Made by a program: the position numbers and the translations under genes. Below the pieces are notes generated by a model, which saw only the letters and a list, made by a program, of their open reading frames with translations, was not told the DNA's origin and did no database searches. A stretch of 64,000 nucleotides of DNA from Paeniglutamicibacter kerguelensis (GTDB taxonomy: Bacteria > Actinomycetota > Actinomycetes > Actinomycetales > Micrococcaceae): assembly GCF_017876535.1 (NCBI RefSeq), contig NZ_JAGIOF010000001.1, forward strand, positions 2,790,001 through 2,854,000, written 5' to 3'. Every line of letters starts with the position of its first letter. Within the stretch, counting starts at the first letter, position 1. Shown here one piece after another: positions 11,267 through 14,106 of the stretch.

Positions 11267-12379
11267 TTAGCCCCACGAGGCGCGCACCGCGTCGGCCAAC
11301 TCCTCGAGTGCGTCGGCGCTTGCTTCCCAGCCCATGCAGGCATCTGTGACCGACTGGCCGTAGGTCAGCTGCTCCAGCACGTCCGTACCCACCTCCACAG
11401 AATCCGGGTCGTGCTTCTGGGCGCCGGGCACCAGGAAGCTTTCGGCCATGATGCCGGCGATGGTCGTGTCCCCGGCAGCAATGCGTGCCGCAAGTTCAGT
11501 GATCACCTCAGCCTGGCGGACATGGGATTTGCCCGAGTTTGCATGGCTTGCATCGATGATCACCCGTGGGTTCATGCCGGCCTTGGCCATGGCCTCCGAG
11601 GCGGCGGCGACATCGCCTTCCCGGTAGTTTGGTCCGGCTGCCCCGCCGCGCAGGATGAGGTGGGCGTCTTGGTTGCCGGCCGTGTGCACAACGGCAGTGC
11701 GTCCCGACTCATCGATTCCCATGAACGATTGGGCTGCCGACGACGCCTGGCACGCGTCGATTGCCACCTGCACAGATCCATCCGTGCCGTTCTTGAACCC
11801 AACAGGCATCGAAAGCCCGGAGACCAGCTGGCGGTGGGTTTGGCTTTCGGTGGTCCGCGCGCCAATTGCGCCCCAGCTGATCACGTCGGCGAGGTACTGG
11901 GCGCTGAGCGGCTCCAGGAATTCGGTCGCCAGGGGCAGGCCCAGTGCACTGGCGGAAAGCATGAATTCACGTGCCGCGCGGAGTCCCGCACCCATGTCGT
12001 GGCTTCCGTCGAGGTGGGGGTCGTTGACCAGGCCCTTCCACCCCACCGTGGTGCGTGGCTTCTCGAAGTAGCTGCGCATGACGATCAGCAGTTCGCTCTC
12101 GTGCTTTTTTGCGGCTGCGGCAAGGCGTGCTGCGTATTCGAGTCCGGCGGCCGGGTCATGGATCGAGCACGGACCCACGATGACCAGCAGTCGCTGGTCC
12201 AATCCCGAAAGCACCGCGCGCACCTCTTGGCGGGCCCGGGTGATCCTGTATGCCTGGGCGTCGGTGGTTGGGAGTTCGCTCAGCAGTTCGGCCGGGCTCG
12301 GCAACTCGGTGAAGGAAACCACTCGCTCATTGGTGTTGGCGCGGGCCGGTGCATCTGCGTTCAGGATATTCGGGTTCAT
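11267..12379 (-). CDS. aroF: 3-deoxy-7-phosphoheptulonate synthase (DAHP synthase, class I)
   Basis: A 370-residue class I alpha DAHP synthase, the first step of the shikimate pathway (phosphoenolpyruvate plus erythrose 4-phosphate). Signature segments are I-V-G-P-C-S-I-H-D (about 67-75), K-P-R-T-T-V-G-W-K-G (about 106-115), G-A-R-T-T-E-S-Q (about 171-178), F-K-N-G-T-D-G (about 193-199) and I-D-A-S-H-A-N (about 271-277). An N-terminal extension of the feedback-regulated E. coli AroF/G/H kind is present, but which amino acid inhibits it cannot be read from sequence. Regulation is suggested by the leader peptide and attenuator located 160 bases upstream. AroQ, two steps later in the pathway, is encoded at 52 kb. 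Confidence 0.95.
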   Translation of the reverse strand: MNPNILNADAPARANTNERVVSFTELPSPAELLSELPTTDAQAYRITRARQEVRAVLSGLDQRLLVIVGPCSIHDPAAGLEYAARLAAAAKKHESELLIVMRSYFEKPRTTVGWKGLVNDPHLDGSHDMGAGLRAAREFMLSASALGLPLATEFLEPLSAQYLADVISWGAIGARTTESQTHRQLVSGLSMPVGFKNGTDGSVQVAIDACQASSAAQSFMGIDESGRTAVVHTAGNQDAHLILRGGAAGPNYREGDVAAASEAMAKAGMNPRVIIDASHANSGKSHVRQAEVITELAARIAAGDTTIAGIMAESFLVPGAQKHDPDSVEVGTDVLEQLTYGQSVTDACMGWEASADALEELADAVRASWG

Positions 12380-12481
12380 GGCGGGCCTTTCGATTCCGGC
12401 CCTGCATCTGAGGGCCTAGCGTTCGATGCGGCCCCGACAATCGCTGCGTATTTCTTCAGGGCCGCTATGGTGAAAATAGCG

Positions 12482-12512
12482 AAGGGCCCACAAGCAATAG
12501 CTTGCGGCCCTT
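12482..12512 (-). terminator. Attenuator hairpin upstream of aroF
   Basis: On the minus strand, stem AAGGGCCGCAAGC with loop TATT and return arm GCTTGTGGGCCCTT (one extra G), followed by CGCTATTTT. The stem is strong, though the T-run is short. It lies about 28 bases past the leader-peptide stop and 100 bases before aroF, the position expected of an attenuator. A second hairpin, CGCTAT...ATAGCG, follows at 12461-12480 or so. Confidence 0.65.
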
Positions 12513-12570
12513 GTCGGCTCTGAAGGTGGGTATGCGAAATTATCGCGTCTTAGGCCCCTCCAGAGCCGAC
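12513..12570 (-). promoter_or_regulatory. Alternative pairing arms of the aroF attenuator
   Basis: CAGAGCCGAC (12561-12570) and its exact complement GTCGGCTCTG (12513-12522) form a 10-bp pair with further partial pairing. The upstream arm is inside the leader-peptide codons right after Trp-Tyr-Ala-Tyr-Phe; the downstream arm ends next to the terminator stem. A ribosome stalled on the aromatic codons would cover the upstream arm and change which structure forms. Confidence 0.55.
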
Positions 12571-12599
12571 ACAAAATACGCATACCAACGATTAGTCAT
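12540..12599 (-). CDS. Aromatic-rich leader peptide of aroF
   Basis: ATG at 12599 to TAA at 12540 encodes MTNRWYAYFVSALEGPKTR. Codons 5-9 are Trp-Tyr-Ala-Tyr-Phe: four aromatic residues in five, including one each of Trp and Phe, the three end products of the pathway. It ends 160 bases before DAHP synthase and is followed by mutually exclusive-looking hairpins. The -10 box TACATT lies seven bases before the ATG, so the transcript is probably leaderless. This is the layout of ribosome-mediated attenuation. A comparable small leader gene (aroR) has been described before aroF in Corynebacterium glutamicum, from memory. Confidence 0.8.
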   Translation of the reverse strand: MTNRWYAYFVSALEGPKTR

Positions 12600-12606
12600 G
12601 ATGATC

Positions 12607-12636
12607 AATGTACAGACAATCCACCGTGATGCCCAA
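12607..12636 (-). promoter_or_regulatory. Promoter of the aroF leader transcript
   Basis: -35 TTGGGC (12636-12631), 18-base spacer, -10 TACATT (12612-12607), then seven bases to the leader ATG. No ribosome-binding site lies between, which is consistent with a leaderless start at the ATG. Confidence 0.6.
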
Positions 12637-12685
12637 TTTCATGACGAACATGACATGTTGAAGCACTCCGGCCCGCCGGATACGG

Positions 12686-12740
12686 CACGGGGCGCCGTCG
12701 CGAAAGGGAAGCGGATTCCCTTTCGCGACGGCGCCCCGTG
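12686..12740 (-). terminator. Hairpin after gdhA
   Basis: A perfect 25-bp inverted repeat (12686-12710 and 12716-12740) with a five-base loop starts 20 bases past the gdhA stop. No T-run follows, but this is one of the most stable hairpins in the window. It separates gdhA from the aroF leader promoter. Confidence 0.75.
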
Positions 12741-12759
12741 GGCGATGCAATGTGGCCGG

Positions 12760-14106
<1,347 letters not shown>

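Follow-up and report, generated by a model that had tools for sequence, protein, structure and literature searches.

In E. coli, separate DAHP synthase isozymes answer the different end products of aromatic biosynthesis. Enterobacterial trp and phe attenuators are built from leader regions that pair as 1:2, 2:3 and 3:4. Corynebacterium glutamicum carries cg1129, which we take to be a class I DAHP synthase. The AroR leader peptide, which attenuates aroF in that organism, contains the codon run Phe-Tyr-Phe, and passages of two papers report that limitation for Phe matters for this leader and limitation for Tyr does not (PMC11802643; PMC4046766). The excerpted text of a 2005 actinobacterial survey describes trp, cys, leu and ilv elements and, for the remaining biosynthetic pathways, reports no conserved structure (PMC1262725). 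Passages of two further papers (PMC4833913 and PMC10272879) make no mention of aroF, and among the papers listed by full-text searches (titles and abstract openings, in a library with little subscription literature), none deals with a leader upstream of aroF that mixes Trp, Tyr and Phe codons.

Here we analyzed the region upstream of aroF in a window of Paeniglutamicibacter kerguelensis DNA (the window being the whole stretch under analysis, 64,000 nucleotides long). We consider it probable that this region specifies a ribosome-mediated attenuator, responsive to the charging of tRNA for Trp, Tyr and possibly Phe, which sets the expression of a class I DAHP synthase. An earlier sequence-only reading had proposed an attenuator at this site, and the conservation, covariation and predicted folding described below support that proposal. 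The locus resembles AroR in that a leader peptide with aromatic codons precedes an actinobacterial class I DAHP synthase gene, and in that both organisms have two DAHP synthases, the second here being of class II (the C. glutamicum excerpt speaks of "one of the two"; PMC4046766). It differs in its sensor codons: the Phe-Tyr-Phe run reported for AroR is absent, and a nearly invariant Trp-Tyr-Ala-Tyr-Phe stands in its place. With the actinobacterial trp, leu, ilv and cys leaders, as excerpts portray them, it shares a short ORF with codons for the product, competing hairpins, a transcript that is often leaderless and a terminator that is often missing or imperfect, whereas those leaders sense a single amino acid or the branched-chain group (PMC1262725; PMC8079986).

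The leader ORF (MTNRWYAYFVSALEGPKTR*) occupies positions 12540-12599 of the minus strand, flanked on that strand by gdhA (14103-12760) and aroF (12379-11267). Its 19 codons run from an ATG at 12599-12597 to a TAA stop at 12542-12540, and codons 5-9 (12573-12587) are TGG TAT GCG TAT TTT, reading Trp-Tyr-Ala-Tyr-Phe as had been noted from the sequence. The start of the ORF is 220 nt from aroF, an arrangement in which a short ORF with a run of end-product codons stands directly before a biosynthetic gene. That gene encodes a 370-residue protein matching the TIGR00034 (aroFGH) profile at 462.8 bits against a cut-off of 173.2, confirming the DAHP synthase predicted downstream of the leader as a class I 3-deoxy-7-phosphoheptulonate synthase. 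The source genome has a single PF00793 match, that of aroF, together with one class II DAHP synthase elsewhere. We considered the class II gene as a second attenuator target and dropped it, as the 600 bases upstream of it contain, on the sense strand, no ORF of 10-30 codons with at least two aromatic residues in five codons. The gap between gdhA and the leader contains an inverted repeat (12686-12740) whose 25-bp arms match perfectly around a 5-nt loop and which lacks a clear T-run; it is perhaps the gdhA terminator. Upstream of the leader, some relatives also have short frames that look like the last part of glutamate dehydrogenase, which suggests from sequence that the gdhA-aroF neighborhood is conserved.

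The density of aromatic codons sets this ORF apart from its surroundings. Among the 828 short ORFs of the whole window (10-30 codons, ATG or GTG starts, both strands), only the aroF leader has four aromatic residues in five codons, and it is again the only one to combine at least three aromatic residues in five codons with a TANNNT hexamer 6-8 nt upstream. The leader RNA from 12597 to 12380 also folds far better than 200 shuffled versions of itself (z = -6.57).

We assessed the leader in 197 sampled genomes of the same family, in 80 of which a protein search found a class I aroF, and took the upstream regions of all 80 loci (30 + 50). The leader was present upstream of aroF in every case. Because the leaders were first located by their motif, a motif-free check was made in which all upstream ORFs of 10-30 codons were ranked by aromatic density; the leader ranked first in 80 of 80, outright in 79 and tied with its own alternative starts in one. 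The ATG lies 12 nt before the Trp codon in all 80 loci. Codon 5 is TGG in all of them, codons 6 and 8 are each TAT in 79, and codon 9 is TTT in 79 and TTC in one. Across the same 197 genomes, the exact 18-mer CGTTGGTATGCGTATTTT accounted for 76 of the 77 matches to a degenerate RWYAYF pattern, and the reversed pattern used as a control gave none among the matches listed. The 77th match lay in G144, a genome without a class I aroF match. As this is the only one of the 117 genomes lacking such a match to carry the leader pattern, leader and gene seem, from their distribution, to have been lost together. The sequence-only reading had hinged on whether relatives keep the aromatic codons and the stems. 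Leader, codons and promoter spacing are kept in all 80 loci, and the stems are conserved too, with compensatory changes in three of the helices described below and related leaders in other actinobacterial families.

Upstream of the ATG, a -10 box (TACATT, 12607-12612, minus strand) ends 7 nt before the start codon and is preceded, across an 18-nt spacer, by a -35-like TTGGGC (12631-12636, minus strand). A simple consensus scan of 12360-12780 called no sigma-70 promoter-like site at its threshold, so the case for a promoter rests on comparison within the family. There, 80 of 80 loci have a TANNNT separated from the leader ATG by 6-8 nt, against 0, 0, 0, 1 and 1 of 80 at five upstream control offsets (spacing 5-8 nt), and 73 of 80 relatives have a TTG at 16-19 nt upstream of that box. 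The spacing suggests that the transcript is probably leaderless: transcription would begin at or next to the ATG, with the ribosome loading on the bare 5' end. Earlier, this spacing had been recognized, and the leaderless start it implies had been called unusual for an attenuator. The spacing stands, holding in 80 of 80 loci; the rarity does not, since leaderless leaders, among them S. lividans TrpL, LeuL and IlvL, are described as common among actinobacteria in passages of PMC8079986.

Comparison of the leaders defined a series of pairing elements, all on the minus strand. Element A (CGTTGGTATGCGT, 12578-12590) is complementary to A' (CGCATACC, 12529-12536), which follows the stop codon directly. 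Element B (GTCGGCTCTGGAGG, 12557-12570) spans codons 10-15 and is complementary to B' (CCTTCAGAGCCGAC, 12513-12526). Directly 3' of B' is hairpin T (12482-12512), followed by hairpin P3 (CGCTAT...ATAGCG, 12463-12481) and by B2 (GGCCCTG, 12457-12463), a second partner of B' with which it forms helix P1. Farther downstream, element C (GGGCCGC, 12428-12434) is the complement of GCGGCCC in the B2 flank, and a Shine-Dalgarno-like GAAAGG precedes aroF (12386-12391). Several of these features had been glimpsed before. The exact 10-bp complement linking ORF and flank (GTCGGCTCTG/CAGAGCCGAC) is present and belongs to the longer conserved helix B:B', and the strong stem with a short T-run is hairpin T at 12512-12482, with T-run TTCGCTATTTT. 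The earlier account of the switch was right that the ORF pairs with its flank and missed B2 as the second partner of B'. Another 10-bp pair (TGCGTATTTT/GAAATACGCA, one G-T), to which the earlier mention of a 10-bp complement could also refer, was tried as the switch and rejected, because it is complete in just 2 of 80 relatives; its 8-base core occurs in 5 of 80.

Pairing was evaluated in all 80 leaders and in a set of 35 obtained from them by dropping those more than about 95% alike. For B:B', 98% of cells were paired in the 35 leaders, one pair changed from U-A to C-G in 9 of the 35, and the two arms of a leader paired better with each other than with arms from other genera in 74 of 80; across families the changes are compensatory. 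Hairpin T showed compensatory change in 5 of 9 pairs in the 35 leaders and in 8 of 9 in a cross-family set of 45, and P3, which was not seen in the leaders of genera g21 and g23, also carries compensatory changes. Together, B:B', T and P3 had a covariation score of 0.206 in the 35 leaders versus 0.111 for shuffles (reached in 0 of 500); the number of pair types was not above shuffles (139 of 500). P1 had 91% of its cells paired in the 35 leaders, with one-sided changes and no compensatory pair, and over 80 leaders its 7-nt core had an energy of -9.7 kcal/mol versus -5.7 kcal/mol when shuffled. In the window's genus the core contains one A-C mismatch and is matched by 8-30% of shuffles; in the fold, flanking pairs bridge the mismatch. 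A:A' had an energy of -14.9 kcal/mol versus -9.9 for shuffled and -15.0 for cross-genus arms and beat its own shuffle mean in 80 of 80 leaders; 81.9% of its cells were paired versus 18-47% when the alignment was slid, but letter shuffles were not exceeded, since A is almost invariant.

In order to ask which B' helix a ribosome at each codon would favor, we folded only the RNA ahead of the ribosome, whose footprint was taken to reach 14 nt downstream of the P-site base. These folds describe equilibrium and ignore pairing across the ribosome; folds that allowed such pairing were discarded as misleading at the stop codon, where B paired with B' around the ribosome. Over 79 leaders (L121 was left out), the mean probability of B:B' with the A site at Trp5, Tyr6, Tyr8 and Phe9 was 0.93, 0.93, 0.77 and 0.24, and it exceeded 0.5 in 74, 74, 63 and 19 leaders, respectively. 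With the ribosome at the stop codon, mean B:B' fell to 0.00, B' was paired downstream with a mean probability of 0.92, and P1 exceeded 0.5 in 76 of 79 leaders. Mutually exclusive helices chosen by a stalled ribosome are thus predicted for Trp5 and Tyr6 in 74 of 79 leaders each. The exceptions were five leaders with B:B' below 0.5 even at Trp5 (L091, L095, L154, L157 and L161) and three with P1 below 0.5 at the stop (L138, L149 and L160).

Later in the aromatic run the predicted outcome is less uniform. For the window's own leader, B:B' was 1.0, 1.0, 0.96 and 0.0 at the four codons, and among the 12 leaders of its genus it exceeded 0.5 in 11, 11, 2 and 1. When 34 leaders, no more than three from any genus, were folded with footprints from +11 to +16, the mean switch from one helix to the other occurred where the aromatic run ends, between codons 7 and 10, and mean B:B' for a stall at Phe9 was 0.81 at a footprint of +11 and 0.15 at +14. 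In these folds, helix outcome at codons 8 and 9 depends on footprint and lineage. In the stop-state structures of 15 leaders, P1, T and P3 met in a three-way junction in 13, and the other two, both from g21, had a P1-T hairpin. Among 17 leaders from outside the family, whose starts were set by hand, B:B' was preferred in the stall in 13 and B' was paired downstream at the stop in all 17. The choice between two B' helices is supported by conservation, by covariation of B:B', T and P3, and by folding.

On this basis we propose the following sequence of events. A ribosome stalled at Trp5 or Tyr6 would hide A and leave B free, so that B:B' forms; a stall at Tyr8 or Phe9 may also give B:B', depending on lineage and footprint. 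A ribosome at codon 10 or beyond would cover B, and B' would then pair with B2; in most genera this would close a three-way junction with T and P3 inside it. In the absence of a ribosome, A:A' could form and trap B. In their logic, A:A', B:B' and B':B2 match the 1:2, 2:3 and 3:4 pairings of the enterobacterial trp and phe attenuators. Two differences are that the equivalent of region 2 (B) lies inside the ORF, and that the equivalent of region 4 (B2) closes a junction around T and P3 and makes no terminator. From physiology and the precedent of C. glutamicum AroR, we infer that B:B' would be the state that raises aroF expression. Weighing against the proposal are the Tyr8 counts and the P1 core in the window's genus, which lower our confidence slightly, and the reported importance of Phe and not Tyr limitation for AroR.

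We weighed the possibility that the conserved sequence is instead an aptamer or a protein-binding RNA in which the ORF is incidental. The wobble positions of the ORF are nearly invariant and minority codons are used, as such an RNA might require: in 33 window ORFs, TAT makes up 11% of Tyr codons, TTT 16% of Phe codons and CGT 12% of Arg codons, fractions that are biased low because the ORFs were picked by GC3. However, other families retain start codon, frame, promoter spacing and aromatic residues even with changed nucleotides (for example VKRSYWRFFEWPALVPG and VSRWYSWFMGPAPAG), the switch point falls at the end of the aromatic run, and A:A' pairing could account for the invariant wobble bases. 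A search of Rfam 15 at the gathering score returned one tRNA for the window and no family for five related loci, and the sub-threshold matches look like chance. One of them, to the CPEB3 ribozyme (12471-12545, plus strand, antisense to the leader; 19 bits against a gathering score of 35), was rejected for want of recurrence: it is not listed in six relatives, whose one listed match is a different one and also sub-threshold. We regard an aptamer or protein-binding RNA as very unlikely.

A functional small peptide would account for the retention of the residues RWYAYF..ALE(G/E)P in most family leaders. Against it, the C-terminus and the length of the peptide vary, and the conservation of codons 10-15 is explained by the pairing of B. 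Moreover, leader L138 (genome G123) has a 1-nt insertion near codon 11 that shifts the peptide frame after the aromatic codons and keeps the RNA block (GCTCTGGAGGGGCC), although an error in the draft assembly could have produced it. A functional peptide thus strikes us as improbable in the extreme. Since the L138 frameshift keeps the RNA, and since other families keep the aromatic residues with changed nucleotides, we read the sequences as showing two constraints, with the aromatic codons kept as codons and the block of codons 10-15 kept for RNA pairing. Leader L223 (MVIRWYAYEVGSGGAAFAR, minus strand, 260-391) is two bases short after the second Tyr codon relative to the alignment, a second shifted frame with the RNA block kept.

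The choice of B' helix could reach aroF through termination at T, through Rho or through initiation of translation. In a classical trp-type attenuator, an intrinsic terminator shares a strand with the antiterminator. Hairpin T, the short-T-run stem that had been cast in this role, shares no strand with B:B' or B':B2 and so competes with neither, and the classical terminator/antiterminator reading is not borne out. If the switch works without a strand-sharing terminator, its output would have to arise where helices abut at T, or farther downstream once B2 is set free.

The first of these routes would keep the leader a transcription attenuator, with T as an intrinsic terminator whose use is set by ribosome position; because T overlaps neither alternative helix, any influence of B:B' would have to be steric, with the helix lying against the base of T and making it harder for T to close at the polymerase. 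Such an effect would be allowed by the alignment, in which the B:B' and T columns abut with zero bases between them in 40 of 46 leaders (the alignment being fitted to structure). T is moreover a strong GC hairpin with much covariation, and AroR is described as transcriptional in a passage on C. glutamicum (PMC11802643). The U-run gives a divided picture: counting 8 bases from the last T-stem position in 46 aligned leaders (45 distinct), we found 7 T residues in three leaders (two of them identical), 6 in six and 5 in nine, but only 3 or 4 in the remaining 28. The simple consensus scan of 12360-12780 likewise called no intrinsic-terminator-like site, T is present in the stall and stop structures alike in the 15 leaders examined in this way, and B2 is made after T, so that a decision at T would need no conserved B2. 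We give transcription attenuation through T somewhat less than an even chance.

The second route is translational, the choice of B' partner freeing or holding B2 for pairing with C near the aroF start and thereby setting access to the Shine-Dalgarno sequence. The complementarity of the B2 flank to C is conserved, with an energy of -18.4 kcal/mol versus -15.2 for cross-genus and -13.2 for shuffled arms, beating its own shuffle mean in 79 of 80 leaders and cross-genus arms in 73 of 80, and in 72 of 80 the stretch leading up to the aroF start has a better fold than the mean of its shuffles. Predicted access, however, shows no consistent change and is often in the wrong direction. Shine-Dalgarno openness was higher in the stall in 15 family leaders and higher at the stop in 18 (p = 0.31), rose in the stop state in 7 of 10 leaders of genus g10, and, in the 17 leaders from outside the family, was higher at the stop in 11 and in the stall in 3. 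In these models, the rise in the stop state runs opposite to simple sequestration. We have accordingly rejected the relay in which B2 frees or traps C as the assigned output and keep it as a rival only; that control is translational appears possible, with more doubt than confidence on our part.

To follow the attenuator beyond the family, we built a covariance model, R1, from the 35 family leaders and scanned 393 genomes of the class. R1 matched in 35 genomes, once in each, and PF00793 matches of all types occurred in 164; R1 is weak outside the family and was run under stricter filters than the PF00793 count. Comparison with PF00793 coordinates placed 32 of the 35 R1 matches immediately before a class I DAHP synthase gene. 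The other three (genomes G732, G774 and G646, leaders L250, L251 and L252) lie before a fusion gene with a weak DAHP synthase domain, a degenerate DAHPS, and a chorismate mutase domain. The leaders of these fusion genes (MTCCRYAF..., MDRCSVF... and MNRCSAF...; n = 3) have no Trp codon and keep Phe or Phe and Tyr. All three also carry Cys codons. R1 matches further include loci in Microbacterium, Microlunatus, Brachybacterium, Phytoactinopolyspora, Spirilliplanes, Kribbella, Longimycelium and others.

Inspection of loci outside the family agreed with these matches in part. In eighteen of the 20 loci L209-L228, a TANNNT box precedes a candidate leader by 6-8 nt (between equal candidate ORFs, the choice favored the one with a -10 box), with at least three aromatic residues in six codons in 16 of them and two in L212 and L217; L227 and L228 showed no candidate leader with a -10 box. 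A -10 box is present in 15 of 15 named outside loci, which were picked for showing a leader. Telling against a broad distribution, among 30 others (L179-L208) a clear leader was found in six, one was masked, and the 23 loci of family f33 showed none. Two outside matches to the pattern (L162 and L163, in genomes G312 and G383) were rejected as chance, their frames staying open over the 37 codons shown. A cross-family alignment of 45 distinct sequences had compensatory change in 26 of 28 pairs and a covariation score of 0.439, versus 0.163 for shuffles and 0.04-0.12 when slid; fitted as it is to the structure, the alignment leans towards it. A contig of a metagenome-assembled genome labeled Acidobacteria (L022:7-112) carries an aroF 57% identical to that of the window and a partial R1 match of 36.4 bits, a case that from its sequence would be misbinning or transfer.

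It is strongly suggested that the leader senses more than one aromatic amino acid, with a less certain share for Tyr8 and Phe9. As a broader reading that we offer tentatively, it may represent an RNA element that is widespread among actinobacteria and absent from the literature searched, in which a leaderless leader would act as a three-amino-acid OR-gate and as a switch without a strand-sharing terminator. B' would leave its helix with the ORF for a repeat farther downstream, the junction closed in this way would surround a hairpin that overlaps neither helix, and the sensor codons would be retuned with the branch of the pathway, the Trp codon being absent before the chorismate mutase fusion.

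Control of the entry reaction of a branched pathway has to take account of three end products, and at this locus a single 19-codon leader has codons for all of them. The element is sharply defined, occurs in several actinobacterial families and has no Rfam match. With it, the integration of several amino acids in one leader and attenuation without an overlapping terminator could be probed directly with simple fusions in soil bacteria, and the aroF leader would offer a control point for engineered production of aromatic compounds.
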